In this document: piece after piece, positions 1,543-22,526 of the stretch
How positions within the stretch are numbered: the stretch's first letter is position 1
Layout of the letters: every line of letters begins with the position of its first letter
Source of the DNA: Polytrichum commune
Taxonomy: Eukaryota; Streptophyta; Polytrichopsida; Polytrichales; Polytrichaceae
Assembly: GCA_950295325.1 (NCBI GenBank)
Contig: OX485805.1
Location: 36,939,501-37,003,500, forward strand
Reading direction: 5' to 3'
DNA length: 64,000 nucleotides
Program-made: the position numbers and the translations under genes
The notes under the pieces: generated by a model
Told to the model about the DNA's origin: nothing
What the model saw: only the letters and a program-made list of their open reading frames with translations
Databases searched by the model: none

Positions 1543-1671
1543 GTAAGCCCATATATACCCTGGGATGTATTTTTTGTTTGTTTGTTTGGATTGCAGTCTA
1601 TCCATCATAATATGAACTCATGTGGCCTCTAGCATGTGAATCTTATCCTAATTAGTGAGAGTGGTACTAAT
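1543..1671 (+). other. Native NLR intron, left remnant
   Basis: This is the 5' end of the NLR intron, from the donor gtaagc at 1543 to the TAAT duplication at 1668-1671. With 18048-18896 it makes a native intron of about 1 kb; everything between is the inserted element. Confidence 0.7.
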
Positions 1672-1699
1672 AACACTATATTCGTTAAATTGAGACTTT
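1672..1699 (+). repeat. Left terminal inverted repeat, 28 bp
   Basis: Identical over 28 bases to the reverse complement of 18020-18047. It is preceded by TAAT. Just inside, GAGACT and AGTCTC form a small hairpin at 1692-1708. Further in, at about 1828-1895, the phrase TAGAGCACTC recurs about 50 bp apart and may be a subterminal binding site. Confidence 0.8.
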
Positions 1700-2202
1700 C
1701 TCTAGTCTCAAATTAATATATGGATCAAACAACATTCCGTGTTCCGAAACTATATTGCGAACAATCTCAAATATATTATATGTTCTAATATCCCAAATCT
1801 ATTATGTGTGGACATAAGCACATATGGTAGAGCACTCAACACCAACTTCATCAACAAAAACACTTTGGGTAGAGCACTCCAAACTAGTTTCATCCAATAA
1901 ACATATAAAATGGTTTATATTATTAGCATGGTCAATAAAATATAGACATTGCAACATACAAAGTGCATGCAATAAATGCATTTTTCTTCAATGGAAAATT
2001 TAGTCCCAAACTTAATAAAAAAATGAACTTCACATTTGTATTGAAATATAGTAAATGAATATTCATCCAACCCCAAACAATATAGCATTCGCAAGCTCTA
2101 CCCAAACTTTGCCCCAAGTTTGAGGAGCACACATATGAGTAATATATATTCGTCGAATTACTGTTTACACTATAATCATGCTAACACAATCCTACCAACT
2201 TC

Positions 2203-5200
2203 TCATTTAACGTGGGTTGCTTCTTCTGCGATCCGAGCAAGGTTGTCTTTTGCAAAAGTTATGTACTTTTGAGGGATGGACACCGATCCACTATGATTTT
2301 TCCGTGGTTTCCATGCTATGAATATGGAATCTGTATCTATCCAAGATGGACCATGCTCAGAATCCACCTTCCACCGAAAGTTAGGGTTTGTATCCCAGCC
2401 TGTATAATGCCGAACAACATCTTCATTCCGTGATGTCGGTCGGTAGTACTCTACTTGTATTTGTCGAAAATGAGGGCTGGAAGTTACAAAATTTGGTTTG
2501 GACAAAACTCTTGCCACCCACACTGGCTTTGCATATGTCTCGTCTCCAGGACGCAAAATGAGCATATAACCTTCATGACAATCCACTGCAATGCGGAAAG
2601 ATGGTGGCGGACGACTACTAGCAGGCCCCACGTAATGGTCGTCCACATCAAACTCCTCTCGAACCTCTCCATTTCCCAAAAGACTAGCCTCCGAAGCTTG
2701 TACATTGACACGTGTTTGTGGCCAAAACCCATGCCTTAAAGTAAGGGGTGTATCTTCATGAAGGTTTGCCAAAGCGCCACGAACACGTGTCCAATATTGT
2801 ATCCAACTTCCGTAACGAAGCCAACACGATCCACCAATATCCGCTACCCTCAAACTCTCCCAATATTGTATGAAGCCTGATATGCCTTTACAAATGTCCT
2901 CCAAATTCTTCATGGGTATTGGTTTGCAAGGCTTAGGCTCTCCGTCAGGCAACATCGTCCTTCCTTCCCCATCAACACGCCATACAAGGAGACCCTCCGG
3001 CGGGCTCCAGTCTTGTGATGTGCACAACAACTTGTATTGCATGGCGGGGACACCATCGTCACGCACGTAGAACCGAAATTGTTGTGCCTTCGTATGTCCG
3101 ATCAATCGGTGAGCTCCGCTTCGAATATACGGTTCTATAAATGCCTTGAAGTCTGGAACCTCCTCAATCATATGTGGGATGACGGGAATGTTCTCCAAAT
3201 CCATGTACGACTTCATCAACAATGGGATTGTTGGAAAATCCTCCTCGCGCAACTTCATGCTCCACCGCCCAAAGGACGCATCAATATCATCGTGCGTGTG
3301 GCCTACCAATAGAAAGGACACAAAAACCTCCTTGAAAATGCCTTTCGCAACCAACAACGACCAATATGCAAAAACATATCTACTTTTATTGTCCTTCGCA
3401 CAATTGTCCAATTGGACACGCAGAGTTGGGGGCAAATTCATGGCAATCACATCTTCACTTGGTGGCTCCGGCAAAGAGTGCACGCATACATCTCTTCCAT
3501 CCAATACCGCTTCATATAGAGGTGTTGATCCCGAGTTTTCAAATAACAATCTTGATGAATAGGACGGCGGTTTCTCCAAATCACGTAAAAGCTTTGCAAA
3601 TGACCCTATCGTGTGGTTTGAATCCCCCGGATACAAATCAAGAGCATAATGAGCATACTTGACATCTCCATGCCCATGTGCAATCATTCCTGCAAAGGCA
3701 ACCCAATGGTTTAATATTCAACTATAACACCAAAAAATTCACATGGTGTACATGTATGGCCCCAAGTACAAACCTAAACGCACAAATTTGTGTTTAGGTA
3801 ATGCAATGCAATTGTTATCAAAATCACCTGTAACCGAAACAGGAAGCTTAAAAAGGCCGTCCGTGGCTTTTATTCGATTTGCAAAACATGGTGAGGCTGT
3901 TTTGGCATGGTCCATTTTGTCATGGATGATTGTAAGGACTTCCAAAGGCCTGGAGATGGACAAAGCTCTATTTGTGTAGTAATCATTACGGTGTGCCTCT
4001 TGCATGTTCACATGCTTGAAATAGTTCATTTGATGTGCGGCATAGGACTCTGTCCCCATCGTGTGTGCATCTCGAAGGCGTTTCAACTTCTCGCATTTGG
4101 AACAACGGGCAAATTTGTCGCCTCGTCTTTTTGTGATGTATTCGCTAAAGTGAGATTTTTTGATAGCACTCAGTTTCGACAACGAAATAGGGTCCAACCC
4201 GGCCTTCTCGCCAACTGCGTTTACGTCCAACAATATGTCTTTCCATTTCGTGCCTGTAGGAAGAACCTTCTCCACAACCTTTTCACCGGTTGCGAGTGTC
4301 CGTGTTTTGTGCGGCATTGCATCGGCAAGGGGGACAATGATGGTTGCCAGAGTGGCTGTTGCTTGTCTCGTTGCTTCTCTTGGTTTCTTTAAGCCCGTGT
4401 TCCCATGGTGACGGGCACGGCGGCCTTCATTGGCATACGCGGCTTGTCTATAAAATTCCGCTTTCGACACACCGTGAATGGTGTACCATGCCGTACAACA
4501 CACGTCTATGATCTCAAGGGTGATGACCTTGCGACCCGCTCCGTTCACATGTATCGCCCTATGAACATCAAGTTTTTTGGTGGATCTTAGACGGAAATCT
4601 CCAAGCCACATTTCTTCACGGATGGCCTTCAATTTATCTCTTGGGAACAATTGGCAACAACGATGTACACAACAATCCTTCGTAGCAACTTCTCTAATAG
4701 ACTCCTCACATAGCAACCTTTGACGTTTACACTTATTTGCAGACGGAGTAGGACGTGTCAATGTTTCGTACTTCCGAAGGCCTTTGCGTGGCCGAATGTT
4801 TGCTTGGAGCTCCTGTTGGATTTGGACGTGTCGTCGCTCATGGTCGCGCAAGCTAACCCCCTCAATTGTCACATTCCTCAACGGCCACCTTCGCAACGAG
4901 AACCTATGAGTTGGATTGACTTCCGAATGTACAAGTGATTCTAATATAACAACTCCAACGTCCTCGGTGCCAAGGGAGTGTTCATCAATGCAATCTTGTG
5001 GATGTGTGTTACGACAAATACCCTCCGCCACAGCAACTCCACTGTCATTAACAAGTACCACATCCAAATTCACCCATGAAGCTCGTGAAAGCCCCGCACA
5101 TTCCACAATGGGGCAAAAAGGATCAGATGGCGAAGGACTCCCCAAATGACCTTCATCTGCACTGTCATCAAAACTATCCTCCCCGACAATGTCTAGCTCA

Positions 5201-5292
5201 TCCCCAGACAGAGATTGGGTGCTGCCCATGTCTTCAGAGAAGGAATCCCCTCTTCCACCAACTCCCTCCATTGCGCCTACACAAATGCACAT
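2203..5292 (-). CDS. DUF7869-type protein, candidate DDE transposase
   Basis: Two exons, 5292-3828 and 3689-2203, join in phase 1 (CAG/gtgatt donor, tgcag acceptor) to give about 983 residues. Translation could instead start at the Met of MEGVGG, seven codons in. The N-terminal third is acidic and unstructured. A CSKC motif precedes a long alpha-rich part. The C-terminal half has the features of DUF7869 proteins: DKMDHAKT (Asp about 461), LDNCAKDNKSRY (Asp about 583) and LLVGHTHDDID (about 619-624). The three conserved Asp-bearing motifs, with this spacing, look like an RNase H-fold DDD/E catalytic core; that is inference. It is the only gene in the element that looks open from end to end, so I take it to be the mobilising enzyme. 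It is transcribed toward the left end. Confidence 0.7.
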
Positions 5293-5457
5293 GAAACCTC
5301 AACAAACATGGACACAACGTAAGGGTCCATGCTGTGAATAGGTCCTCATGAACAACAGCGTGAACGAACCTCGAAGTACAGCTCCGACTAAGAGTTCTCT
5401 CTACGAATTCAGGAGTGGGAAAAGAGCAAAAAAGAACCAACTTTTGGGGGGTGCGCC

Positions 5458-5466
5458 CCTTTATAC
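5458..5466 (-). promoter_or_regulatory. Possible TATA box of the DUF7869 gene
   Basis: On the minus strand the sequence reads agTATAAAGgg, about 170 bases upstream of the start codon and followed by a G/C-rich then T-rich leader. The spacing allows a 5' untranslated region of about 130 bases. There is no experimental support. Confidence 0.35.
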
Positions 5467-5569
5467 TATCCACCTCCACTTGCCCGACTTCCTCATTGGA
5501 TGCCTTTCCCGCCTTGTTATTTCAAACCTTCTGACAGAATTCCCCGTTTTCTGTTTATTGTAGAAAATG

Positions 5570-7328
5570 CGCATCTTTCAATGCCCCTCTCATACCCCAG
5601 CCGTCATATGTCTTAGTCTATGATATTTAATTTTTTTTTGGTTTTGTGTGTATATGACATACGACATTGGGAGGAAGGGTGGCGGCCACATTAATTTTTT
5701 CAAGTGTCACAACGGTATATTTTAACCAATATGTATACCCAACCACAACTCCATTCAATGCTTTCAAGTGCAAACCTATTTAGGTGGGGTTGGGGCCATT
5801 TGGAGGTTGCAATTATGAGAGAGTTTCCAAGGCTTGAGGCCATTGTCATGATGAATAAAATTATTTATTTGTCTCCCCTAAACCCTAAACCCTAGAACAT
5901 TGCGGCTCTGTTATCTCGCATGGAAGTGTGGCAATGATAAACGTATGTGGACGTTGTTAAGGGGATACTAACTAGCAATGTCGCTTTTTGGTTCAATCTT
6001 TTAATGTTATTTCAATCCATCCTCAAGTTCACTTCAAGTTTACTAATGTGTGTGACCAAAACATCCAAAGTTGGACCCTAAACCCTTATAACATCCACAA
6101 CATGAAATACGTATTGACAAAATACAAAACCAATTAGTATATCATGTTTAAACGTCCCAAATAACATATTAACATGATCAAGATTGTATTTACTATAACC
6201 TTCTTATTAGACTCTTCTTCATATTATGCAAACAATATCTGTTATATCTTTCTCCATTATCCAATACATGTGGAGGGAACAATGAATAAGAACATGATTG
6301 CGTGAATGGCTTCATTTGATGTTGTGCTTCTCTTATTTACTTTTGCATCACATTCCATATATTAAATACATCATGAACCATGGTTTATTGGCGACTATGT
6401 GATTCCCTAAAGTGAGCAAAACATCCAAAGTTGAACCCCTTACCCCTAATAACATCCACAACATTTCATGTTATTTGAATAAACACAAGACCATTCACTA
6501 TATCACGTTTAAACGTCCGTAATAACAAATAAACATAATCAAGATCGTCTTTTCTATTACCTTCCAGTAAAAACCTATTCTCACCAGTAAGTCAATGTTA
6601 TATGTTAATATTGGATAGATTAATATGTTATAAACCTAACTCCTAAACCCTAAACCCTAAACCCTAAATACAAAAATTCGTAGTTGTTCACTGCTACCTC
6701 CACATACAAACAACATGAACTTTATCTTGCGCCATTATGTAATATACGTGGAGGGAACATTCAATAACAACATGATTGCGTCAAAGGGCTTCATTTGATG
6801 TTGTGGTTCTCCGATTTACTTTTATATCACATTCGAAGTACATATATCACGATCCATGGTTTATTGGCGACTATGTGATTCATTCAAGTGAGTATGTAAG
6901 GGATTTACTAAAAACTTGAGCATGTTAGCATTTCGACATAAGGATCATGCAATTCCAAACCCTGAGAAAATGCTCTTGGGGAAGGTATACATTTAGCAAA
7001 CACATTCAAATATCCTAAATTTCCGAATTTCATGTTGGGGGACGGGGGTTATATTTTTTATTCATTGCATATTGTGTGAGTTCTTGGCATCATTGGTAAA
7101 GTCTAAATGTCAACGATTACATCGTTAAATGTCACGCAATTGTATTATTTTTCTAACTTGCTCAAACAAAAGAGAAACCAATGATTTCAACTTGTTTGGG
7201 AAATTTAGGTTATGGTGTCATGTGAGTAGGGGTTAAGTCTTAGTTTTAGCATAACGTTGCGTTGTAAAAATGCATTAGTTGTATAAATGGTTTCATTTTG
7301 TAGAATACCGCATTTGATGTGCACCTTA
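5570..7328. repeat. Gene-free stretch with a diverged tandem duplication
   Basis: I see no gene here. Two diverged copies of one block lie head to tail. Both begin CAAAACATCCAAAGTTG (6056 and 6418) and later read TTATTGGCGACTATGTGATTC-like text (about 6382 and 6859). The second copy is about 110 bases longer because it holds an AT-rich piece and a CCCTAAA run. The remainder is AT-rich and unassigned. Confidence 0.55.
6642..6668 (+). repeat. Short interstitial telomere-type repeat
   Basis: About three and a half CCCTAAA units in a row, the Arabidopsis-type plant telomere motif. A shorter one (two units) lies at about 5878. Both are too short to be a former telomere. They fit gap-filling at a break or simple plant-type repeat. 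Confidence 0.7.
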
Positions 7329-7859
7329 TGGGGCATTCCCACTTGACATTAGTTAGAAGTAGTATTAGTCTAAATGCGGTTTTAGTTATCTAGGTTTCAC
7401 ACATATGGCTCTTTTTAGTGCCGTGCCTAGGTGGCAAATGATGTGGCATGGCTTAAAAGTGGAGGTTTTAAGCCTCAACCACCGACGCTCCCATCGGTAC
7501 CTAAACATTAGGCAAGAATATAGGAATTTTAAAAGTGTCGCCTCCCACCCTTGTGATTGGTTGCTTTTTAGTCTTAGCTATGAGGGCACGAGGAGCTTCA
7601 TTAACAAAAACCGATGGTAAGATAGGTGAGTAGTAAGGCATTTGGGGATGGGACAAAAACTACCCAACATTCATTGCTTGGTAGATAAAACCATGAACAT
7701 GTGTGAAAGCTACTTAACTAAAACCTACTTGAAAATCTCCGGAGCAAGTTCTTGTAGGTGCATTGGGATAGTTGGATGCCTCCGCTATAACCGAGGGAGC
7801 TTTACCCGGTCTTTATAAAATAGTGAGGGTCTTAACTAAAGTCAAGTGGGAATGCCCCA
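7329..7859. mobile_element. Tourist-like MITE (PIF/Harbinger type), 531 bp
   Basis: The ends are inverted copies of TGGGGCATTCCCACTTGAC, extending to about 27 bases with one mismatch. They are flanked by TTA at 7326-7328 and 7860-7862, the 3-bp target duplication typical of PIF/Harbinger MITEs. It has no coding capacity and sits between the two genes of the large element, just upstream of the promoter region of the plus-strand gene. Confidence 0.75.
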
Positions 7860-7899
7860 TTAGGGTACTCCAAAGTGTCTTGAAAATACTAATGCCCGC

Positions 7900-9053
7900 T
7901 AAGGGTTTACAGTTTGGCTTTAGGATTTAGGGTTCCCCGTAATCCTAATTCCGTTGGTGCCCTAATCCTGTTGGCACCCTATTCGTGCGGTTGGGGGCCA
8001 ATTCCCGAGGCATACAAAACCCCAGCTGTCACAACTTTTCGCTCTTTCTCTCTCTCTCCGCGCCAAGCATTCGCTCCGCGCCTCTTGTGGAAGCGCCGCT
8101 TTCGCGAAGCGCCGTGGCGATTCAGGGTGGCGATTTTCTTCTCTTCCCTCCCTTCTTGTTGCTTTGGCGCCTACTGATTCTTCTCCTTCCCTCCCTTCTC
8201 TTGCTGTAGAAGTTAGGAAGTGTTTGCAATAGAACATAAACCTAAGGAGAGAGTTTTAGAGTGCGTGAGAGTTAGTAGAGTGATTGTTGTAGAGTGAAGT
8301 AAGTAGAAGATTGTTGAAGGGTTTTCCAACATTCTAAGCTTGCGGGTTTTGGAGGCTGTATTGTAGTTGGAGAGTTTGTGAGATTTAGGAGTTCTATAAG
8401 ATAATCAGGAGGTGTTTGAGAGATACAAAAGTCATTTGAGAGAGTCAGTCATTGTTTTGAGAGATTCACTTGTTCTTAGGGATTCAGAGGTTGTTTGAAA
8501 CACTCAATTGTTGTTTGAGAGATACAAAAGTCATTTGAGAGAGTCAGTCATTGTTTTGAGAGATTCACTTGTTCTTAGGGATTCAGAGGTTGTTTGAAAC
8601 ACTCAATTGTTGTTTGAGAGATACAAAAGTCATTTGAGAGAGTCAGTCATTGTTTTGAGAGATTCACTTGTTCTTAGGGATTCAGAGGTTGTTTGAAACA
8701 CTCAATTGTTGTTTGAGAGATACAAAAGTCATTTGAGAGAGTCAGTCATTGTTTTGAGAGATTCACTTGTTCTTAGGGATTCAGAGGTTGTTTGAAACAC
8801 TCAATTGTTGTTTGAGAGATATCTAAGTCATTTGAGAGAGTCAGTTATTGTTTTGAGAGATTCACTTGTTCTTAGAGATTCAGAGGTTGTTTGAAGTATT
8901 GAATTGTTGTTTGAGAGATTCAAAAGAGATCTAGGAGTTGTATGAGAGATTGTGGATTTGTGTGAGAGGTTACATTCAACTGTTTCTGTGTTATTGGAAG
9001 AAGAACACCTGTTCTAAAGCAACTGTTTACAACAACTGCTACATACAACAAAG
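7900..9053 (+). promoter_or_regulatory. Promoter and 5' leader exon of the accessory gene
   Basis: A CT-rich block (ctctttctctctctctcc at about 8040) looks like a plant initiator region. It is followed by about 1 kb without a long open frame, rich in GAGAG and TTTGAGAGA, and ends in CAAAG/gtattt at about 9053. The next acceptor, ttacag at 9649-9654, places the first ATG (9655) directly after it. I therefore read this as a non-coding first exon. It contains the 99-bp tandem array. Confidence 0.45.
8414..8930 (+). repeat. 99-bp tandem repeat, about five copies
   Basis: Units start at about 8421, 8520, 8619, 8718 and 8817, marked by AGATACAAAAGTCATTTG and TTCTTAGGGATTCAGAGG. The first four are nearly identical. 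The fifth has substitutions, and a partial sixth follows. It lies in the presumed 5' leader of the accessory gene. Confidence 0.85.
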
Positions 9054-9173
9054 GTATTTTCTTTTATTATATGCAATAAGTGTTTGTCAATTGAAGGTAT
9101 TGTAGCATACACAACGCATAAGCATTGTATATGCTACGTGCCAACTTTTAAAAATTACATTAAAATAGGAAAG

Positions 9174-9368
9174 TTTGGGGAGACGACCCAAACACGGCCA
9201 CAGGTTTGGGTCGGTCGACCCAAACACAGCCTCTTGTTTGGGTCGACCGACCCAAACACAAAACAAAGCATCATGTTTGGGCCGAACGACCCAAACACAG
9301 CCTCTTGTTTGGGTCGACCGACCCAAACACAAAACAAAGCATCATGTTTGGGCCGAACGACCCAAACA
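9174..9368. repeat. Palindrome cluster 1 (six copies)
   Basis: Six copies of a 22-bp palindrome with arms GTTTGGGTCG and CGACCCAAAC; some have GGCCG or GGGAG in the left arm. A 71-bp unit is duplicated within it. It lies in the intron before the first coding exon, with one more variant at 9608-9629 close to the acceptor. Confidence 0.85.
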
Positions 9369-9654
9369 ACGTCTTCTAATTATAAACTCATAAAGAAATC
9401 CATGATTTTTGCATCAATATAAAATTCACATCCACTAAAAAATAATAATCAAGGAATGTATCAAGGAAAAGTATCAAGTAATCATGCATGTCACAAACAA
9501 TATAAAATGCAAATCCACCCAATAATCAAAACATTCTTATTATCAATACAAATGATGCTGAAATATATAAATATACAATCCACCTAAACCTATTCATGTC
9601 GTAGATGTTTGGGTCGAACGACCGAAACTAACATTGCACATTATTTTCTTACAG

Positions 9655-12521
9655 ATGGCTCCAAAGAAAAGACCCGGCGAAAGGTGGTTCATGCCTGCGC
9701 CGGACATGTTGTGGCAGGAGCACGAAACCCCGCAGGATGACTCCTATTCCCCTAAGGACGGGCTTGTCCTCGCGTGGTCTATACAAGTGGTTAAGGGTTC
9801 GCAATACAAAATGATTTTTGTTGTGAAGGTTGGGACCGTGGAGAAGCACACATGGGCTACTCTTACGGGGTGGGAGGTGGCATCGGTTCAGTCTCTTGGA
9901 GACTACGTGGATGTCATCCTCGAGAACAACGCTGTCCAGAACGCGCATATGTTTATGCACCAGTTCTCCGAACCCTTTGACGCTATCTATGCAAAAGAAA
10001 CATGTGTAGAACCAGACGTCATCAAACCGGAGTCCATATTCATCGATAACAGTACATCGAACACAAAGGTGTCGAGCAGATTCACGAAACTAAAGCATGC
10101 AATCAGCGTGCTCAACAAAGCCCTGCAGAGCAAAACCAAGTCTCAGCAACCCGTGAGGCGGAAAGCAACCACAGAGGAAGGAGCAGGGTCGTCAAGACCT
10201 CAATCGGTGAGGAAGCCGCGACCAGTACCGGCTGACTCGCGGAGGACCACTCCCTCCCAAACACCTGCGGATAGCGAGACGCCTACACCTTCTGGGAGCC
10301 GTCAAACAACTCCATCCAAGAGGGGGAGAGAGTCATCTGTGATGACTGACGAGCCAGTCTCACCGGAGTTGCGCATGCCGAAGCCCGGCGAAGAGGTGGA
10401 TGCAGGGGAGCTGCAGAAAATCGTGAACAATTTCACGACGAAATGCTCCCACTGTTTTTTCATGGGCAGGGATTTTAAGTTCGACGTGAACATCAGCCAG
10501 TGCCATCTAGCGCCACCGGAGAAGTGTGTCCGGGCAAAGGAGGACGCCTACGTTGACTGGATAATCGCGCAGATCGTTTGCGAGCAGTTTAAAGACGACA
10601 GGCAAACGATTGTAGTGATGCCACAAGGTCTCAAGAAAATGCCTACACCTGAAATGTGGCCCACAATTCAGAAGGGCGATTTTTGGCTCATAGACGGCCA
10701 GCACAGCGTGGAGGCATCCAAGAAAATCCAACTCATGAATGAGTGGGATGATCCGAACAATCAGAAGGAAAAGCTGAAGGTTTGGAAGGCACTAGTGGTG
10801 TGGTCTGACGACGAGACCAAGCTCAGCGACATCTCCCGGTACTTCAATATGGGAAATAAGAAGAGGGCCTACCAAGCTTCCTGGATAAGGAATATCATGG
10901 CCTCGCGGGAGGTGTGGGAGTTCTATGGTAGGCCTCCCAAGGAGAGGGAGAATGCGAAGGACAAGAATCCCAAATGGGAGGTGAGTATTGTTTAGGTCGA
11001 CCGACCCAAACTCCTGATGCAGCCTTGTTTATTTAGTTTGGGTCGACCGACCCAAACTCCTGATGCAGCTAGTTTATTTAGTTTGGGTCGACCGACCCAA
11101 ACTCCTGATGCAGCTAGTTTATTTAGTTTGGGTCGATCGACCCAAACTGTTGTTGCAGATGTTGGTCATGATATGGGTTGGAAATCACATGTACATATCT
11201 AACACGCATTCAAATGTTCTGTTTTGTGGACGTGCAGGATTTCAAATACCAAATGATCAACAAATTCTCCTCCATTGATAATTCGAGCCACAAGCAGAAG
11301 AAATACAGCGACCTCAAGGGGGAGATTTACTTGATTACAGCATCTGACTCAGTTTGGAGGAAGTGGAAAACCGTGTTTGAAAAGCACGAGACGGGGGATT
11401 TGATCGACCCCGACACTGGCATTTTCTTCAGCCAAACCTCGCGCTTCAAGCAGATGAAGCCTCTCGTGAGAGAGTTCTTTAGAACTCTTCAAGGGCTGTC
11501 AGAGACGGAGGTGGAGAAGGCGGCATCTCACATCCTGCACGTGGCACCCACGGCGAAGAGGTGTTGGGTGCACCCGAAGATTGTCTTCCAAAAGCCCAAA
11601 TCCTTCGTTCCTTCATGCTACACCATGAAGGAATGGACGGATAACAGGAAAAAGAAGACGACTATCGTGCAGGAGCTGCATAAACTCGTGCCAGAGAGGA
11701 ATATTGTCGTGGACGGCGAGGTCCATGAGGCTAACTGGAGAGCATTCAAAGCTGAATATAAGTTCACCAGTGCCTCCATGGCGGCTCTAATAAGGGAAGC
11801 GGGGGACGACTTCTTGCGGGCCAAGATGGTGAAGGGTGGGAAGAACCGGGCGCTTCCGGATCACACAGCGCGTGCGTTCTCGAACTTCATCAAGGAGAAG
11901 AAGATTGTCCAGTTTGAAGGGGAAGCGTACTTCAACCTTGTCACCGCCGACCCGTTGAAAATTCAGGGCTGGCCAGGTCAAGACGCCAGAATGGCGATAA
12001 GGACGAAAGCAAGGGACCGCTTTCCTTTTGGGATGATTGATTTCAGGAATATTCCTGGAAGCTCATTTGAGGGCACGATGAGCACCCTCTTCTATGACCC
12101 CTTCCTATCTAAGTTCGTCGATTATGCAAGCCCTAAGTTCAGGGAGGTAGATATCTGGCTTTGGATAGTCGAGGATAGGAGGGCGGAGCAGGTGTACGAG
12201 CTTGTCCGGAAACTGCAGCCGGAGTATGCAGTCTCCAAGTCTCACTACATCGCCGCACCGGCGGAGGGAGCTTACACGACGTTGAGGGACAAGAAGACCA
12301 AGTTCGTCAACGTCTTGTGTTTGTACTTCGTGTACAAAGCGGAGTTGCTGAAGGTGCCGAACCACCCTATATCCCGGATGGACAAACTCTTCCAAGTTCC
12401 AGAAGGGTTGGGTGTCAACAAGTGCCTCTACGACGAGGCTAAATACGCGAACTATCCTTTAGATGAGCTGCGGATGGAATTTTACGTGAGAATGATGATG
12501 TCACGCACCTCTCCATGAGGA
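9655..12521 (+). CDS. Accessory gene of the large element, N-terminal part with a DGQH (ParB-like) motif
   Basis: Exon 9655-10980 (MAPKKRPGERW..., donor GAG/gtgagt) joins in phase 0 to an exon starting at 11239 (gtgcag acceptor). About residue 346 reads WLIDGQHSVEASKKIQ, which resembles the DGQHR-type signature of ParB/sulfiredoxin-like domains; the nuclease assignment is inference. A Ser/Pro/Thr-rich linker lies at about residues 170-245. The second exon is globular (many Trp and charged residues), with no family I recognise. It runs to a TGA in the ATGAGGA target copy, where a 951-bp repeat has landed. The last few codons before the insertion probably also contain a frameshift, since the continuation at 13473 reads in another frame. 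The G/C-rich codon use differs from the AT-rich surroundings. Confidence 0.6.
10990..11149. repeat. Palindrome cluster 2 (four copies)
   Basis: Four copies of the GTTTGGGTCG/CGACCCAAAC palindrome (10991, 11038, 11081 and 11127). The first three are centred on AC and the last on AT, which makes it a perfect palindrome. Spacers of about 21 bp read TCCTGATGCAGC...TTTATTTA. The cluster fills the intron between 10981 and 11238, immediately after the donor. Confidence 0.9.
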
Positions 12522-13472
12522 GTGCCCGAAACACCATGGGCACAAGGGGGACCCCGGAGTGACACCCGGGACTTGTGGCGCCGTTGGTGAGAGGGCCCAA
12601 GTGATCCTAGTGTGGGTGAGGGCCCCGGGCGTTGGGAACGCCTCCCACCCACGAAGACTAGGAGGCACAAGGGTAAGGCCATAAGCTATGCGTAGCTCAT
12701 GGCGTGGTGATTCTAGAAAGCTCAAGAACACCTCAATCGGAGGTGTGAGCTAGGAGTTATGGCCATTTGAGTGGGGCGCTGTCCCGGGACAGCGCCCTGG
12801 TACAGCAGTGCCTGGGAGTGATTCCCGGGACTGCCAAGGTTCAAACAGGCATAACTTCCTCAAGACTTGCTCAAATGGGGCAAGTGAGGAGTCCATCGGC
12901 ATCTACGTGAAGCGTAGATGAGGATGGAGCGGTTGGTTGTTATGATCAGACATCATACAAGGAAGTTATGATGGTCTGAAGCTGCTGGGGGGGTTCTAGG
13001 CCCAGCAGCTAAGGGAAAATGTCCACTTGGCCCCAACTCTTGGTAGAGAGACAAGAGGTTGGTTGGCGGTGGGGTAGGGGCTCCGTGTAGAGTCCTAGAG
13101 GCTTATATGGGTGAGGTGGTGTGGCCTCACCCACCCGAGGCCGAACGGCAAGGCCTCCATGGGCTTTGGCCTATTGTGAGGCCATAGTTGCCTAGTATGG
13201 TTCGGGTTGTTGTAGTGTTGCTCCGGCAACGCGATGATCAACATAGGATTGGACTTCCATGGATGGAAGTCCACATTGGGGAAATGGGTTACCGATTAAG
13301 GGGTGAGTCCCGAAAGCAAAGTAGGAGGGTTGGTTCCCTCCTATGAACTATTGGTCCGGGGTAAGAGGAGCTATCCATTAGCATGGCGGAATGCGAAGGG
13401 TTAGCGCTCGTAACCTTTGGTAGAAACGAAAATTGGCAAGATTATTAAGGGACCTAGCAAGGGTTGCGACAG
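12522..13472 (+). mobile_element. Unclassified 951-bp repeat inserted in the accessory gene
   Basis: Flanked by a direct repeat, ATGAGGA (12515-12521 and 13473-13479). A second copy lies at 34019-34962. The shared sequence begins TGCCCGAAAC and ends GGTTGCGACA(G), giving the TG...CA look of an LTR, but the 7-bp duplication does not fit the usual 5 bp. There is no coding capacity and no inverted terminal repeat. It could be a solo LTR, a SINE-like or TRIM element, or an unknown class. It interrupts an exon. Confidence 0.7.
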
Positions 13473-15283
13473 ATGAGGACGCTGACGAGGAGAGGGGATT
13501 GCATCTTCAACGTCTTCGGAGGCTCTAAACCTATCTATGCTGCCATGGTAAGCGACTTTCTATAACTCGTGCGCAGTTTGGGTCGATCGACCCAAACTAG
13601 GCTCTGTGTTGGTTTGGGTCGATCGACCCAAACTAGGCTCTTTGTTGGTTTGGGTCGATCGACCCAAACTAGTCTCTTTGTTGGTTTGGGTCGATCGACC
13701 CAAACTAGGCTCTTTGTTGGTTTGGGTCGATCGACCCAAACTACACATTGTACTTGGTCTTGTTTATGTCCCTCGCCTAATTCTAATGTCTATATAACTT
13801 GGATTGTGTAGATGTCGGGGCTGAGTATATACTCCTACATAGAGGATGGCGATCTGCCATTTTACAGGACGCAGAGATCGTTGGCGAAGAAGATGGACAT
13901 CCTCGATTGGATCCCGGGTAGCTACGTCGACGAGGTTGTTCAGGGGGGCGAAAACCCTCTTGATAGGGTGAGGCGGATCAACCCGGAAGAAATGGCCATG
14001 AGGGCCACAACCCAAGAACCCGAACCTCTTGTCGGGTTGCATCCGGGCAATCCGTCCCGCACAGAAGGTGGCGATGTCGAGGAGGAGGAGGAAGAAGAGG
14101 AGCACGAGGAGGCGGAGAAGGAAGGCGACGTGGAGGAAGGGGCAACGGGCTTCACGCAAGAATCCGAAGCCCCTCAACGGAAGAAGGCGATGCGGGCGGC
14201 AACCCCGCAGAGTAAGCTCGTGCCCGTCCTGACGGTGGACGATGCACGGGACATGTACTCCAGGGACGCGACCGCCACGTTCAGGGAGAGGGGAAGAAGC
14301 TGTATGGCGACTACTCCGTGGAGGAGACCATTGCCATAAGCAGCGAGGACGACGATGACATTGAGCTCGCCAAACGGCTAAGATCAGATCCCCCGTCCCC
14401 GACAGCGTTCGCTGGCATGGTTAGGGTGAAGCCCGAGGTCCTGACTGTGGAGGAGGCGAACGAGAAGATGAGGAGGGACGAGGAGCAGCGAGTCCGCCTG
14501 CAGAAGGCTGCCGCGGAAGAACCCTCAATGCGGAACGAGGTAGCAGAGCTAAGGGCTCTCCTGTTGGAGCAGGAACGACAGAGGGCGATGGCCCAACCTC
14601 CGTCCCACGCCGAATTGATATCACAAGTGATACAAGGAATGTGGGCGCAAGGTTTGGTGGTGGCTCCCTCCAGCTCCTTCCCGCACTTGCCCCCCGGCTT
14701 CCCTCCGCAGAGCATCCCTCAGCAGCCTGTGCCGCAATCGTCTTTCAGCTTCCAGCACTTGATTCGGCCCCACCAAGTTCTGTACGCGCCGGTCCAGCAA
14801 GTGGATGACCCCAACATCTGGCGCGTCTCTGGAGCCTCCTCCCCTTTGGGCCCTCCACCACTTCGGCCCCCGATAGTCATGGCGCCCCCTCACCAATCGG
14901 ACGACCCCAGGATGTTTGGGTCGACCGACCCAAACCCACCATCCACTGGAGTGTCCGAAGGGCCCTCTCCAGATGCAGGACAGTTTGGGTCGCCCGACCC
15001 AAACCCCGTTGCAGCGCAGTCCTCCCTTGACCAACATGGGTGTCAACTAGACACGGCCATGCTAGATGTTGAAGGCTTGCAAGGGCCTGGTGATACCTCT
15101 ACTCCTAACCAAATCGATGAACCCATGCATGATGCAAATGCGGAGATTGGTTTAGGACAAGGGCCTGATGCCGATCGTTTGCAGGAGAAGGTTCCTGACG
15201 TCGTCGGAGAAGGCGGTGGCGAGAGAGGCGGGGCAGCGGGGACGGTGGAGGCTTCCACATCGTCGAGACATGACCAGGGCGAG
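13473..15283 (+). pseudogene. Accessory gene, middle exons (acidic and coiled-coil linker), frameshifted
   Basis: After the insertion, a short exon ends at 13553 (GCCATG/gtaagc) and encodes CIFNVFGGSKPIYAAM. It joins in phase 0 to 13812 (ttgtag acceptor), encoding MSGLSIYSYIEDGDLPFY. An acidic run follows (EEEEEEEE at about 14085). The frame then shifts by one base at about 14280-14292, and the reading continues as GKKLYGDYSVEETIA in the next frame. That part has charged heptad-like helices (about 14440-14590) and then Pro-rich, low-complexity text. Two palindrome copies at 14914 and 14983 are translated as FGSTDPN and FGSPDPN. The donor GAG/gtaata is at 15284. I do not recognise a family. 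Confidence 0.5.
13576..13742. repeat. Palindrome cluster 3 (five copies)
   Basis: Five perfect palindromes (GTTTGGGTCG, AT, CGACCCAAAC) separated by about 14-bp spacers such as TAGGCTCTTTGTTG; period 36 bp. They fill the first half of the intron 13554-13811, again just after a splice donor. Confidence 0.9.
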
Positions 15284-15327
15284 GTAATACACTGAGCCCT
15301 CCCCAGTTTGGGTCGACCGACCCAAAC
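14914..15327. repeat. Palindrome copies in the exon and the next intron
   Basis: Copies at 14914-14935 and 14983-15004 lie in coding sequence, the second with a CC centre. One at 15306-15327 lies 22 bases after a splice donor. Together with the three clusters and the copy at 9608, about 19 copies occur between 9.1 and 15.4 kb; I notice none elsewhere in the window. Confidence 0.85.
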
Positions 15328-15772
15328 TTGCTGGGTCATTGTCTTGTTGGCGTGGTCGTGTCCCCCTTGCTAGGAGGAAATGCACACCCCCTGCCCCCCA
15401 TGCTCTACACTTGCTCCCCCCCCCCCAACGTGCCCCCCCGCGATCCCCTTCGTCTCACCTGCACTCGACTATGCTCGACCTTGGCGGCGCGCAACCAATT
15501 TTGTAGATGTAGAATTAGGATAGTGTGAATGCCCTCGTTCACCGCGGTCCCCCCCCCCAATCAAATTGTACATAGAGATTTGTAAAAATAAAATTATTAT
15601 TTTTGGCGCCCATATGTTTGCATCCGTGTCCCAATGTATGTTGTTCCCCTTGTATTTTTTTGTTGCCACCAATGGTCCAATTCTTCTTGTGTTTGCACAA
15701 AATTTCCGTTCTGCTTGAGATGGACATAGCATAACATAGTCCTCGTCCGCCTTCTCTCGCTCGTCGCCGCAG

Positions 15773-16585
15773 GGTTCGGAGCATAGCGTCGCAGCTCCCC
15801 ACCGATCCTCTCCGAGGAGTGTGGAGGACAGCGCGGTGGTCCCCCCGATTTTGCCCTCGCCACCTTCGCCTCCCAAGACCCGGTTCCTGGTGCTAGACCT
15901 CAACGGGGTCCTTGTCCAGTGCGTGCATTGTCCGAGGGTCCCCACGGTGCCTTTCTGCAAGCCCGAGGACGCCAACTACGATGGTCCCCCCGCGTACATC
16001 AAAAGCAAGCTAGTGTACCTCCGCCCGTGGCTTCGGCGCTTCCTGCAGGTCGCCCTATCCAAATGGTGGGTGATCGTGTGGAGCTCCATGAAGTCCGAGA
16101 ACACCCAGGCCGTCGTGGAGTTCATCTTCAAGGGACTCCAACCCCCGTGCTTGGTCCTAGGACAGGACTCTTGTAGAACGTTATACACCCCCGAGGGCAG
16201 GGTTGTGAAAAAGCCCAACAACCCCGCCGTAAACCAATTTCTTAAGGTCTTGAAGCCAGTCGTATGGGACCAGCGTCCGACCATGGTCGGCTGTCCCTAC
16301 GACGTTCGCCCCACCCGTGACAACACGTTGATGGTGGACGACAGCGCTTCCAAAAACATTTTGAACCCGACCTCGAACTTCATAGTTTGCCCCACGTGGA
16401 CGGTCGAGAAGGTCCGAGACCGCTTTTTGTTAGACCTACTTAAGTACATTCAAACGCTCGTGGGGAGCGGACTACCCGTGCCCCGGTTCCTTAGTTGTAA
16501 TCCGATAGGCGAAAGATACATGGATCCGAAGGACTATATGTACAGAGAGTTGTACGCTCACGCGAAATATAATAAACTCATTTGA
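15773..16585 (+). CDS. Accessory gene, FCP1/NIF-like HAD phosphatase exon
   Basis: The exon starts after cgccgcag at 15772 and continues the frame in phase 0 (271 codons to TGA). RFLVLDLNGVLV at about 15877 is the HAD motif I of the FCP1/NIF (CTD small phosphatase, TIM50-like) family. It is followed by YLRPWLRRFLQ, WWVIVWSSMKSENT (motif II region) and LMVDDSASKN (motif III/IV region with paired Asp). In catalytic members motif I is DxDxT; here the second Asp is Asn, as in many plant DLNG-type FCP1-like proteins, so phosphatase activity is doubtful. The exon ends in a stop instead of a donor, although exon-like sequence continues at 16705. That suggests either the true C-terminus or a nonsense change. 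A bipartite nuclease/phosphatase-like arrangement would be unusual. Confidence 0.65.
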   Translation, partial: GSEHSVAAPHRSSPRSVEDSAVVPPILPSPPSPPKTRFLVLDLNGVLVQCVHCPRVPTVPFCKPEDANYDGPPAYIKSKLVYLRPWLRRFLQVALSKWWVIVWSSMKSENTQAVVEFIFKGLQPPCLVLGQDSCRTLYTPEGRVVKKPNNPAVNQFLKVLKPVVWDQRPTMVGCPYDVRPTRDNTLMVDDSASKNILNPTSNFIVCPTWTVEKVRDRFLLDLLKYIQTLVGSGLPVPRFLSCNPIGERYMDPKDYMYRELYAHAKYNKLI

Positions 16586-16704
16586 GATACTACATGGTGT
16601 GCCATTGTGTGTGATATATTATGCCTCAATTGTATATCGATTTTCACATGCTCCCCCCTCCCCCCCTCCCCTTGGGTTTTGTTTTGTTTCCTTTTTTGCG
16701 CCAG

Positions 16705-17505
16705 CGTTTGGAGCCCTCGATTGAGATCGTCAGCGAATCAAACTTGGGGAGCTTCTTCTACGAGACCGTCTACGATGCCGCGTCCACCATCGACTACTCC
16801 AAGGAGCCTATCGACGCCGGCGTCGTCGATAGCCCCCCACCCAAGCAAATCTTCCGGCCATCTCCGTCCCCGTCGCCGCTCAAGGGCATAAATCGCAAAT
16901 GCGTCTGGACGTCCCCGTCTCGGCCCGGCGGCAGTAGTACACCTCAACGGCGGCTGCGGATGGACGCTCGGCCTACGAAGAGTGGCACCCTTCCTATTCC
17001 TTTGCGGGACGCATTGCCCCTCCTCGCCGACTCCGACGGGAACGTCCCCGGTGACAAGGTGAACCCCCCCCCCCCCAAAACATGGTTATCCGCGCATTAC
17101 AATCATCCCGCACTTAAAAAATGAACGTGTGACACGTTTGGGTCTTCCTCCCTAAACTAACACGTGTGTTCTTGCATTCACGCGTTGCAGGTTGCTCCCA
17201 CCCGTAGACCTATGCGGGCTAGTGCGTCCGTCGAGTTGGAGCGTTTCTACTCCATGACCAGAAATGCAAGACAGTCCACTTCATCGTATTCGAATTCTTC
17301 GTCGTATAATTCGGGCGGCCGACGGAATCCAAAATGTGTTATTGATGGCGGTCACCCCAAGAATGGCTATAGTCGCGGGGCGGAGATTTTCAGGAATGTT
17401 GAAGCAATGCGAGCAAAAGAAGCCGCAGCAAAAGAAAAAGAGGCAAAAGAAAAAGAGGCAAAAGAAAAAAAAAGCAAAAGAAAAAGAGGTAGTCTCCGAG
17501 GCTAG
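16705..17505 (+). CDS. Accessory gene, C-terminal exons (basic, low complexity)
   Basis: Exon 16705-17058 (gcgccag acceptor, GACAAG/gtgaac donor) joins in phase 0 to 17191-17505 (gttgcag acceptor). The first encodes SIEIVSESNLGSFFYETVYD and a Pro/Ser-rich tail. The second ends in a Lys/Glu/Ala-rich helix (AKEKEAKEKEAKEKK) and a basic terminus, KRKRG. The phase and codon bias fit the preceding exons, but the stop at 16583 separates them, so they may form a distinct gene or a stranded end. No known domain is seen. Confidence 0.45.
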
Positions 17506-17673
17506 ATAGGCCATAGTAGGCGTAGGGTTGTGGGCCATAGGCAAGAACATTTTGGGTCGCACTATCCAATGGATGTGTGGTGTTAGCATGCTATGCATTT
17601 TACATGCCACACTTTGTATGTTTTTTTTGCAATAATATAAGTGTCACATGATTTCCCCTTCCATATGGTCTAA

Positions 17674-17886
17674 GGTTTGGATTGCCCTACCTAAACCATC
17701 ACAAATATGAGTTTGGAATATTTTGTATGTTATATTATATTGGTTCACATATTTCCCCTTCAATATGATCTATGGTTTGGATTGCCCTACCTAAACCATA
17801 TTCATACAAGTTTTTGTGCGATAATATGAATGTTTTAAGATTTCCCCTTCAACTTGGCCTAAGGTTTGGATTGCCCACCCTAAACA
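17674..17886. repeat. Right subterminal repeats of the large element
   Basis: Three imperfect palindromes with arms GGTTTGG and CCTAAACC around ATTGCCCTA (17674, 17774 and 17863), each in a roughly 90-100-bp unit starting ATTTCCCCTTC. A weaker relative lies at about 17136. They lie inside the right end, where transposase-binding sites are commonly found. Confidence 0.7.
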
Positions 17887-18019
17887 ATCCCAAATATGAG
17901 TTATTAATGGGGATCTTGTTCTAAACACCCGCTTCAAAGTGTTCGCATCTTACAACTTTCTCCAATATGTGTTCCATTTATCCTTGTTCTTATTTTTGTG
18001 AATGTCTCAAAATGCCCAA

Positions 18020-18047
18020 AAAGTCTCAATTTAACGAATATAGTGTT
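18020..18047 (-). repeat. Right terminal inverted repeat, 28 bp
   Basis: Reverse complement of 1672-1699 without mismatch, followed by TAAT at 18048-18051. Confidence 0.8.
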
Positions 18048-18896
18048 TAATTCTTAAAGCACGCACTATTTAGCCAAATCTCAAAGGTGCTAAGGGTTGA
18101 AATTTTTACCAAGGGACACGAAATTCATGAAAGTATGCTCATTAACCATAGAGTTGAAGAAAATTAGTGCGCACTTGTTATATGTGCGTGCCACATGCTT
18201 GTTAATGAGTAGTGCCAATGTTGGTACTTTTAATGAATTGTGTTGTATTTTTTAGTATTTTCAATAAATATTGTCGGGTTTAACATGCTTCTCAAAGCAT
18301 TTGGTGGCACTAATTTCACAGCTTAAATAAATTCAATATCACACTCACTAATTTCCCACCCTTATTACTAGCCCACCTTCATTAATTGGGATAATCAATG
18401 TAATGATATATAAATTACAAATCATTAGAGGATTGAATTTGGATGGATATTATCAAGTCACCAAGGTTACCCTGATAGAATCAAACTTTGGTCACAACGA
18501 GGTTAAAATGAGCACATTAAAATATGTACAATGCTTGATGTAGGTTGTGAATATCAATTTGATGTAAAGTTAGAAGTTCACCAACATTTTCTTTATTGGG
18601 TGAATTGGTAAGTCATCATTGGAAGTTGCTATATATTTGTATATATTTTCTAGTCATTTTACTACAATGAGTGTTTGAAGATTTTTTTTAGATAAAACAC
18701 CTATTTTCCATGTTCCGCTATCAACACTTGAGCCACGTACTAGGCGATGAAGTGGGAAAGTGATTACATTCACGCCCTCTTCTTGGCTTCATAACTTGTC
18801 TAAAACGAAAAGCTTGTTTTATAAATTGATTGAGAAACCATCTATTTTTTCAATTCATTAAATTTTAATTGGTGTCTTGACTTATTTGCATTGCAG
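18048..18896 (+). other. Native NLR intron, right remnant
   Basis: AT-rich, with no gene or repeat that I recognise. It ends in a pyrimidine-rich tract and ttgcattgcag at 18896. Confidence 0.65.
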
Positions 18897-21556: not shown

Positions 21557-22526
21557 CACTAAAAGAAAACGTTGTTTTTTTGGATGTCAAAGAAAATGGC
21601 TCTGCGCGTTCGCTTTGACATGGAAGTGCTCCTCTGGGACGTCACCTAAAATCCGTTATGAAGGACAGGCAAAAAACACCCAATAAACATAGATAACATG
21701 GCCAATTTCAGCATGTTTTTTTGTGACGTCACATAGAACATGGTCTTCCATAATCTCCAGAGAGGGCCACGTGGCCTCCACGCGAGCAACTTTTGAGCGG
21801 ACAGTGCCATGTCGGCCACTTCTACATTTGTTGCCTTGCTGACGTGGGGTGTCATGTGGACCCCCTTCAGAAATAATGTGGACTGCGAGATTTTTGACGT
21901 GTCATCCGTTGTTGCTGATGTGTACATTGCAATATGTTGAGTTGTCTTCTGACGTGTCACCCGTTGTTGCTGATGTGTACATTGCAATATGTGGAGTTGT
22001 ACGTGCCGTGCTTGGTTTGGCAGACGTCCAGTGCGACATGGAAATGTCATGTGGGACATCTTGCTCGACGTGGACATTTAATTTATGGAGTTTGCAGTTT
22101 GATGCATTGTTTTGTACGACGGCCTATGTGGCGGTAGAATGTCTTGTGTGGCATCATATTGGACATTCAATTTTTTTGCGATGTGTGGACAAAACATAGC
22201 AGGTCTGACGATGAATTCTCTGAGACATGTTCCCATTCATGAGGAATTCGTTTTTAAAATGGGTTGGCATTGGCATGGATGATTGCCTCAACTTCTCAAA
22301 GACAGTACTGACATCAAGCTACATGGCTATTACAACAACCAATTGTGAAAGGGTCATTTTTACATGAATCAACCTGGACAGCACGCGTTTCACATGGCCA
22401 TGGCATAGACATAAAGAACGCTAGGAATAATAGCTATGCAAATCATAAAATGCATTGTATTCATTGATACAACATATTGCAAGCACAAGGCCGCATTTAC
22501 ATAAGAGTCTGTAGTCACCCAAAAAT
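21557..22526. repeat. CACTA left subterminal region
   Basis: No gene. It is dense in short motifs such as TGACGTGTCA, ACATGTCA and GTCATGTGGA in both orientations. A 53-bp phrase (GACGTGTCA...GTTGTTGCTGATGTG...TGCAATATGT) is repeated at about 21895 and 21951. Such clusters are where TnpA-type proteins bind in En/Spm. Confidence 0.5.

Follow-up and report, generated by a model that had tools for sequence, protein, structure and literature searches.

A 16.4-kb unit at positions 1672-18047 of the window, a 64,000-nucleotide stretch of the Polytrichum commune genome (OX485805.1, positions 36,939,501 to 37,003,500), is a single cut-and-paste transposon, probably of the DDE type, that carries a DUF7869 transposase, two putative accessory genes (A and B) and 18 copies of the 22-letter palindrome GTTTGGGTCGNNCGACCCAAAC, on which the earlier note on this DNA was silent. 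Three families of DUF7869 elements each have a distinct palindrome. We infer that the palindromes are bound, that it is the product of gene A that binds those of its own family, and that this self-recognition probably serves anti-silencing in the manner of the VANDAL/VANC system (VANDALs are MULEs), the gene B domain providing the contact to the transcription machinery; we give this reading as a whole a probability of about 0.5. The features of the element and its flanks are as follows.

1668-1671: left TAAT copy of the 4-bp target-site duplication (sequence and empty sites)
1672-1699, plus strand: left terminal inverted repeat, 28 bp (end comparison and genome count)
2203-3717, minus strand: candidate transposase C-terminal ORF, DUF7869, with the second and third Asp motifs (Pfam PF25273, E 2.3e-41; at least 85 scored genome copies)
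3739-5298, minus strand: ORF for the N-terminal part of the candidate transposase; the first Asp motif, DKMDHAK, lies close to the ORF end (ORF list and relatives)
8413-8926: 99-bp tandem repeat without palindrome, upstream of gene A
9204-9367: palindrome array upstream of gene A, five sites
9607-9628: single palindrome, one mismatch, just before the gene A start
9655-10980, plus strand: gene A exon 1, DGQH codons at 10693-10704 (ORF, at least 95 scored copies, dN/dS, place of the motif)
10990-11147: four palindromes arrayed in 45-bp units within the intron of gene A
11238-12518, plus strand: gene A exon 2, ending at a stop (ORF; second-family homologue, E 1.5e-17)
13576-13741: five palindromes arrayed in 36-bp units upstream of gene B
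13812-15283, plus strand: 5' portion of the gene B coding sequence; in the window copy its reading frame shifts near 14288 (ORFs and copy comparison)
14914-15004: two palindromes within the gene B coding sequence
15306-15327: one palindrome in an intron of gene B
15773-16585, plus strand: gene B FCP1/NIF-like HAD phosphatase-like exon (PF03031, E 1.6e-13; TIGR02251, E 4.2e-08, under its cut-off)
16705-17058, plus strand: downstream exon, probably of gene B (kept in L005 and L007)
17191-17505, plus strand: possible last exon with a basic tail, uncertain (sequence kept)
18020-18047, minus strand: right terminal inverted repeat, 28 bp, perfect (end comparison and genome count)
18048-18051: right TAAT copy (sequence and empty sites)

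The perfect 28-bp inverted ends and TAAT flanks described in the earlier note proved exact on re-reading, with 28 of 28 positions complementary between 1672-1699 and 18020-18047 and TAAT at 1668-1671 and 18048-18051. With up to three mismatches allowed, the 28-mer end occurs at 1029 forward and 1031 reverse places (about 2,060) in the 407.8-Mb genome, while the same pattern read backwards occurs at none. Identical 4-bp flanks were found in 32 of the 34 end pairs read, against a shuffled mean of 1.5, and the element thus combines inverted ends with a target duplication of fixed length, as expected of a cut-and-paste DNA transposon. The joined flanks (352 bases) gave 41 genome matches, five of which cover all or all but one base; the three of these that were read base by base hold exactly one TAAT, gap-free, and supply the empty sites that the earlier note had proposed to look for, as paralogues rather than alleles. 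The spread of the element is recent, on the basis of ten HAD copies, that of the window included, which are identical in protein.

That transposase and accessory genes belong to one element, which the earlier note had put forward as its own inference to be checked against other copies, is borne out by a second complete element (L004+L005, C1:610757-628840) with both ends and all genes in the order seen in the window. Both genes lie within one end pair in at least seven of 34 pairs on scored matches alone, a lower bound since only the best candidates were scored. Two transposase copies without gene A, L008 (3.6 kb) and L009 (4.8 kb), contain remnants of gene B exons, and we read them as internal-deletion derivatives; both are palindrome-free, yet have the ends and 4-bp duplications. 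The proposition that the palindromes are dispensable in cis was considered separately and is unsupported, as the deletion junction of L009 is spanned by one of 40 scored matches (769 candidates).

The candidate transposase scored 142 bits for DUF7869 against a gathering cut-off of 26, and the motifs DKMDHAK, LDNC and HTHDDID were read directly in its ORFs. An intron presumably joins 3739-5298 to 2203-3717; a relative (L003:6044-8122) has one ORF. The D motifs are common to four lineages, with a single copy, L016, lacking the second D. In the predicted model the order of strands and helices fits an RNase H fold, but the mean pLDDT is 43, and Foldseek with this low-confidence model returned Argonaute and Mos1 as best matches at a non-significant E of 0.025 or above, with none at 0.001 or below; the DDE identity is plausible on this modelling. 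Sola elements have a 4-bp target duplication, the length found here, and the comparison is one of duplication length alone. Four base pairs do not fit KDZ or Zisupton elements, the duplication of Zisupton being 8 bp in the available text of PMC12730594. Pfam holds no functional description of DUF7869, the family is unnamed in the literature searched, and no relatives were confirmed in viral contigs.

The accessory region, in which the earlier note had seen one long multi-exon gene, is here divided into two genes: A, at 9655-12518, closes with an in-frame stop at 12518, and B, at 13812-17505, opens with a fresh ATG at 13812. Comparison of copies places gene A under strong purifying selection: its protein is 87% identical between copies whose fourfold sites agree little more often than by chance. 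In exon 2 the dN/dS ratio is about 0.05, and exon 1 shows saturation of its synonymous sites. Composition bias was rejected as the sole cause of the silent-site saturation, third-position GC being similar in the two copies (0.64 versus 0.71). The motif recurs as DGQH, HGQH or VDGQH across three DUF7869 families, and the product is probably a ParB-like DNA binder on the basis of this motif and its homologues. The DGQH part of the "DGQH/ParB-like" description in the earlier note stands as read in the ORF, whereas its ParB-like part found no credible match to a ParB fold in Pfam, PHROGs, NCBIfam or PDB searches. The predicted model of exon 1, with a pLDDT of 31.5, lends such a fold no support. 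Neither a DNA methyltransferase domain (in the gene A exons or the relatives read) nor the DUF1985/DUF287 homology of VANC (in a Pfam scan of both exons) was detected. Relatives of gene A were confirmed neither in viral contigs or phages nor in bacterial and archaeal genomes (49 pattern matches, none confirmed).

For gene B, the FCP1-like HAD domain of the earlier note is a firm match, the NIF domain of ORF 15740-16585 scoring 51.1 bits against a Pfam cut-off of 21.8 (E 1.6e-13), though its second catalytic Asp is Asn. Active phosphatases of the FCP1/SCP type have a catalytic DxD. The corresponding stretch is LVLDLNGVL in the window and LVLDVNGIL in a second family, and with DLN and DVN in place of DxD phosphatase activity of gene B is doubtful. 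A PDB sequence search with the HAD part gave no match at E 0.01. Two other copies have 13 nt near 14288 that are missing from the window copy, whose gene B reading frame is shifted as a result. The last ORF (17191-17505) differs from L004/5 by nine nonsynonymous and no synonymous changes and is uncertain as an exon, given no sign of purifying selection.

All 18 palindromes of the window, against none expected there, lie inside the element; 14 are perfect, and each consists of 10-bp arms around a 2-bp spacer (10-2-10). They are chiefly upstream of genes or intronic, with two of the 18 in coding sequence. Perfect copies of GTTTGGGTCGNNCGACCCAAAC number 9,231 in the genome and those of the reversed pattern zero, and these counts, together with the 18 against none expected, rule out chance or a general genome feature as their source. 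Among the first 100 listed of the 9,231 places, three DUF7869 elements account for 77 and two MULE-like or ParB-like loci for 19, while four are outside identified elements or end pairs; in a separate listing, this is true of 14 of the first 50 places. When the loci were scanned for recurrent palindromes without guidance, the same families came out on top. Between two subfamilies the unit of the gene A intron array changes from 45 to 57 bp with the palindrome retained, and the linkers there match at 10 of 23 positions (shuffled mean 10.7, reached by 440 of 500 shuffles); linkers upstream of genes A and B retain some likeness (reached by 8 and 48 of 500 shuffles, respectively). In another subfamily, palindromes also occur upstream of the transposase.

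The second of the DUF7869 families, whose elements are frequently some 25 kb in length, has different ends and the palindrome CCCACGGGTGNNCACCCGTGGG, also 10-2-10, together with homologues of gene A (E 8.6e-19) and of the HAD gene (E 5.4e-24; Pfam NIF 4.4e-11, 43.2 bits). The third has the palindrome GGGTGAGGCANNTGCCTCACCC, with 17, 10 and 11 sites in L014, L015 and L016 (up to two mismatches), and a VDGQH-motif gene whose similarity to gene A is weak (tblastn E 6e-4; blastp E 0.25, a score that the best shuffle also reached); the 28 kb read yielded no HAD gene. When five palindrome types were counted over the window and all 26 loci, no DUF7869 element had two types, the sites in L026 belonging to a neighbouring first-family element. 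No recurrent palindrome was found in L017, a fourth lineage. The GTTTGGGTCGNNCGACCCAAAC palindrome also occurs in a MULE-like locus, in which no DUF7869 was found and whose ORFs include a DGNHR and a DNA methyltransferase-like protein (PHROG E 5e-5); this locus and L002 each have a second palindrome type. Homology of the MULE-associated DGNHR protein to gene A was tested and none was detectable.

Relatives with related genes but different palindromes suggest that DNA belonging to such an element is marked and recognised by the element itself, which may thereby escape silencing. The gene A product would bind the 22-bp palindromes as a dimer, and binding in introns and upstream of genes would mark copies of its own family; once bound, it would most likely keep the element transcribed against host silencing, the gene B domain would contact the transcription machinery, and families would diverge by joint change of protein and palindrome. 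As a tentative and broader proposal, plant transposons may hold a modular self-recognition code in which a ParB-like dimer reads a family 10-2-10 palindrome amplified through noncoding parts, diversified inside a hitherto unnamed DUF7869 superfamily, equipped with an FCP1-like effector, and common to, or hijacked by, unrelated MULE-like elements in which a ParB-like motif goes together with a DNA methyltransferase.

The identity of the palindrome reader is the point on which sequence cannot separate gene A from the transposase, because both vary together between families. Transposase, ends and palindrome all differ from one family to the next, so that the palindromes might be sites of the transposase itself, serving transposition, as with the TnpA sites of maize. 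The single occurrence of the palindrome-free derivative checked by its junction is in keeping with this, but the sites lie in the interior of the element, about genes A and B, and do not adjoin the ends, and the 3.6- and 4.8-kb derivatives have ends and duplications without palindromes, though deletion may have followed insertion; on balance we think a transposase role improbable. We likewise give little probability to a host transcription factor or insulator protein that reads the palindromes and is exploited by several transposons, gene A having another role. Such a factor would explain why DUF7869 elements have the same palindrome as MULE-like or ParB-like loci, but three families with three palindromes in one layout fit a diversifying element-encoded binder better, and 77 of the 100 first-listed places fall within three DUF7869 elements.

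If gene A is the reader, binding might have other consequences. It may mark or modify the DNA of its own transposon through ParB and a degenerate or cryptic methyltransferase part, the palindromes being modification or entry sites, a role like that proposed for algal ParB-methyltransferase accessory proteins and in line with the DGNHR and methyltransferase-like ORFs of the MULE-like locus; we regard this as unlikely, the methyltransferase match being absent from the gene A exons and the relatives read. Self-repression that limits copy number, for which KorB or ParB autoregulation is a precedent, would suit the sites that precede genes A and B, as well as those that precede the transposase in another subfamily, but the high copy number (about 2,060 ends) and recent spread make a self-repressor improbable.

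To our knowledge, sequence-specific anti-silencing is known from one transposon group, in Arabidopsis. If gene A acts as we propose, this mechanism has a separate origin in a second group of plant transposons, whose proteins are different and whose code is much clearer: a palindrome legible from DNA alone gives a predicted target for each family, directly testable by binding. Such elements could supply a set of DNA binders whose natural 22-bp sites differ from one another, and would provide a well-delimited context in which to study the role of DUF7869 proteins, the match here (E 2.3e-41) being to a Pfam family (PF25273) that has no function assigned.

Accessory genes of the ParB-methyltransferase kind have been described before, in transposons of algae. 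One such transposon, Sola1-1_Ec32 of Ectocarpus, is comparable in its large size and in carrying a ParB-like gene, as gene A probably is, in the orientation opposite to that of the transposase (PMC12477816, available portion). The present element differs in its transposase, its FCP1-like gene, the lack of a detected methyltransferase in gene A, and its cognate palindromes, of which the available portion of that account makes no mention. In fungi, TET/JBP genes provide a comparable case of epigenetic accessory cargo in DNA transposons from several superfamilies, but this cargo is a dioxygenase, superfamilies and duplication lengths are different, and no cognate motif is mentioned in the accessible part of the report (PMC12730594). 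Closest in layout is VANDAL21/VANC21 of Arabidopsis, in which, from the text available to us, the accessory protein binds short, family-specific motifs in tandem repeats within introns and upstream regions of its own transposon's genes (PMC5735166), and an unrelated element can be affected (PMC10398659, in part). The VANC21 motif is short and non-palindromic (YAGTATTAY) and its protein is of the DUF1985/DUF287 type (PMC5735166), whereas the element described here, known from sequence alone, combines a DUF7869 transposase, 22-bp palindromes and DGQH-motif and FCP1-like accessory proteins; the anatomy of its motifs nevertheless matches that of VANC targets.

The perfect 28-bp inverted ends and TAAT flanks described in the earlier note were both recovered, with 28/28 bases paired between 1672-1699 and 18020-18047 and TAAT beside each end. 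Allowing up to 3 mismatches, the 28-mer occurred at 1029 forward and 1031 reverse places in the 407.8-Mb genome (64 contigs), where the window occupies C3:36939501-37003500, and the reversed 28-mer control at none in the same 407.8 Mb. A shorter end pattern with flanks was found at 788 places; the 100 listed gave 34 pairs in which adjacent ends faced inward at a distance below 45 kb. Identical 4-bp sequences stood on both sides of 32 of these, against a mean of 1.5 for shuffled pairings; the two exceptions (21.7 kb and 22.1 kb) are perhaps ends belonging to different elements. GGTTTGGATTGCCC occurred three times close to the right end (17674, 17774 and 17863; window 17674-17876) and is a possible subterminal transposase site separate from the palindrome. 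On its two sides (window 868-1632 and 18834-21686) the element has the NB-ARC and the LRR coding sequence of a resistance-type gene, which belongs to a cluster with five or more matching empty sites in paralogues; these flanking ORFs point to a plant host, possibly a moss. A genome-wide query with the element's joined flanks and one TAAT (352 bases; 40 of 1081 candidates scored) gave 41 matches, five of which spanned all or all but one of the 352 bases; these five lie within C3:36.58-36.88 Mb and are 92-95% identical to the query. Three of the five were read base by base and each had a single TAAT and no gap, as the earlier reading had implied. Although the empty sites are paralogous copies from a resistance-gene cluster and not allelic, they display the pre-insertion state.

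The features of the element are as follows.

3739-5298 and 2203-3717, minus strand: transposase, two ORFs
9655-10980: gene A (DGQH-motif accessory gene), exon 1; ORF with GT-AG borders read from the sequence
11238-12518: gene A, exon 2; ORF with GT-AG borders read from the sequence
13812 (ATG) to 17505: gene B (accessory gene with an FCP1/NIF-like HAD domain); predicted exon borders
15773-16585: phosphatase-like domain of gene B (PF03031, E 1.6e-13)

What had been taken for one long multi-exon accessory gene is thus read as two predicted genes, A (9655-12518) and B (13812-17505), and the FCP1-like domain falls in gene B. That domain also matched the dullard-like TIGR02251 (E 4.2e-08), under the family cut-off. 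Active phosphatases of the FCP1/NIF-like type carry a DxD motif, and since this position reads DLN in the window and DVN in a second DUF7869 family, the domain may bind instead of dephosphorylating. Gene A is a putative ParB member on the basis of its DGQH motif. In a second-family relative, a single transposase ORF held all three Asp motifs.

That these genes form a single element, an inference in the earlier note, was borne out by a complete copy at C1:610757-628840 (loci L004 and L005) with both ends and the same genes in the same order and orientation. Protein identity to the window was 83-93% over most of the DUF7869 gene (78% in one 99-aa piece), 83-84% for gene A (tblastn), 57-79% in the longer 5' pieces of gene B, 78% for the HAD domain and about 90% for the tail ORFs. 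A further copy at C1:27537293-27551721 (L006 and L007) had the same gene set, with gene A exon 2 and gene B each incomplete. Compared with L005 and L007, gene B of the window lacks 13 nt near 14288, which shifts the frame. Two short copies, L008 (3.6 kb) and L009 (4.8 kb), had ends and 4-bp duplications with only transposase and gene B exon remnants, and neither a gene A match nor a palindrome at up to 2 mismatches was found in them. Among the 34 end pairs, at least 17 had a DUF7869 match, at least 7 gene A and at least 10 the HAD domain, with DUF7869 together with gene A or HAD in at least 7; these are lower bounds, as 85 of 1868, 95 of 1137, 138 of 1289 and 150 of 1491 candidates were scored. 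The Pfam family of the last search was matched in 0 of 14 control genomes. At least ten HAD copies, the window copy among them, were identical in protein (138 of 1289 candidates scored), which shows recent spread of the element. All of the sequence evidence came from one assembly.

Compared with L004 and L005, the window copy's transposase had a dN/dS of 0.15-0.20 and its gene A exon 2 one of about 0.05; gene B gave 0.12-0.23 and HAD 0.18. Nine nonsynonymous and no synonymous changes in the last tail ORF make its coding status doubtful. Gene A exon 1 had 212 synonymous differences over 442 codons, past the reach of correction, and its protein was 87% identical between the window and L005/L007. 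Fourfold-site identity was 34% (near chance) in this exon and 76% in the C-terminal transposase ORF, with third-position GC similar across the comparison. Gene A therefore encodes a protein under strong constraint and has saturated silent sites, inside an element with more similar outer parts, and this saturation could reflect module exchange between old lineages or selection for escape from homology-based silencing.

The palindrome GTTTGGGTCGNNCGACCCAAAC occurred 18 times in the window at up to 3 mismatches (14 perfect; 0 expected), always within 9204-15327. Two sites were inside gene B coding sequence; the other sixteen lay outside the predicted coding parts, either upstream of one of the two genes or within an intron of A or B. 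Array units of the window measured 71, 45 and 36 bp, and those of the L005 intron 57 bp. In the gene A intron, linkers of two subfamilies matched at 10 of 23 positions, a value reached by 440 of 500 shuffles, so that the linkers there are no more alike than shuffled sequence and the palindrome is kept nonetheless. Linkers upstream of gene A (8/500 shuffles) and gene B (48/500) retained some likeness, which argues against a fully independent array origin there. Perfect GTTTGGGTCGNNCGACCCAAAC was found at 9,231 places genome-wide and its reversed pattern at none. Three C1 DUF7869 elements accounted for 77 of the first 100 places listed (36, 16 and 25, the middle element having an unfixed right end). 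L001/L010 and L002/L011, two loci whose DGNHR ORFs are ParB-like, contained a further 19, and 4 fell elsewhere. Window 12519-13500 also contains two long palindromes, GGCGCTGTCCCGGGACAGCGCC and TGGACTTCCATGGATGGAAGTCCA; one or the other recurs at window 34746, L002 or L011, and the stretch is probably a separate dispersed repeat.

Other DUF7869 groups had other palindromes. Second-family ends (ATGGGGATATTAACTAAAATGAG..) occurred at 95 places, and 20 of their 37 inward-facing neighbour pairs (<70 kb) measured 24-26 kb. One member, C2:4153720-4178705, had a TACC duplication; the 18 kb read of it contained CCCACGGGTGNNCACCCGTGGG at 12 places with no more than 2 mismatches, together with homologues of HAD (33% identity, E 5e-24) and of gene A exon 2 (27% identity, E 1.5e-17). 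The joined gene A proteins of the window and second family aligned at E 8.6e-19 (97.8 bits; shuffled maximum 31.2), with HGQH as the ParB-like stretch in the latter. Perfect CCCACGGGTGNNCACCCGTGGG was present at 644 places, and among the 50 distinct places that head the listing, 36 lay in three second-family end pairs and 14 outside those. In the third family, GGGTGAGGCANNTGCCTCACCC (23 perfect places genome-wide) occurred 17, 10 and 11 times at up to 2 mismatches in L014, L015 and L016; in the first two of these loci the sites lie upstream of the transposase. A VDGQH gene of L014 was weakly similar to gene A (tblastn E 6e-4, blastp E 0.25), and the 28 kb read of that copy yielded no HAD gene. 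In a fourth DUF7869 lineage, L017, no recurrent palindrome was found; beside it, at L017:9383-10000, lay a relative of the third family's gene (E 2e-7). When five palindrome types were counted in the window and in each of the 26 loci, no DUF7869 element read held more than one type, and an unguided recurrent-palindrome scan of the loci gave this set of palindrome families first.

The MULE-like or ParB-like loci L001 and L002 each had two or more palindrome types. At up to 2 mismatches, L001/L010 (C1:2150001-2168000) carried GTTTGGGTCGNNCGACCCAAAC and CCCTGTGCGTNNACGCACAGGG 18 times each; the locus also had a DGNHR-motif ORF, a DNA methyltransferase-like ORF (PHROG E 5e-5) and a transposase-like ORF with a sub-threshold SWIM match alone (E 0.076), and seems to belong to the ParB-methyltransferase accessory kind. 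At L002:131-2065, GGTGTCTCGGNNCCGAGACACC occurred 13 times at up to 2 mismatches, with a spacing of about 139 bp in most cases; it is another 10-2-10 palindrome family.

In this mobile unit of recent spread, with its constrained accessory gene and family-specific palindromes, we propose that the gene A protein would bind its own element's palindrome and thereby counter silencing, and that the gene B domain may assist transcription. The transposase varies between families along with gene A, so the sequence does not settle which of them reads the palindrome; gene A is the best candidate because the sites are internal and a ParB-like motif gene accompanies the same palindrome in a MULE-like locus.

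On the protein side, the main prior art in the material cited comes from Ectocarpus Sola1, whose ParB-methyltransferase accessory gene has reported green and red algal counterparts (PMC12477816); gene A, having no methyltransferase match, differs from it. For the palindromes, the VANC literature describes motifs in tandem repeats, intronic in VANC21 and VANB21 and upstream in the case of VANA21 (PMC5735166), which diverge rapidly between families, an unrelated element being affected too (PMC5735166; PMC10398659). The palindrome anatomy of the window element parallels this VANC motif layout.
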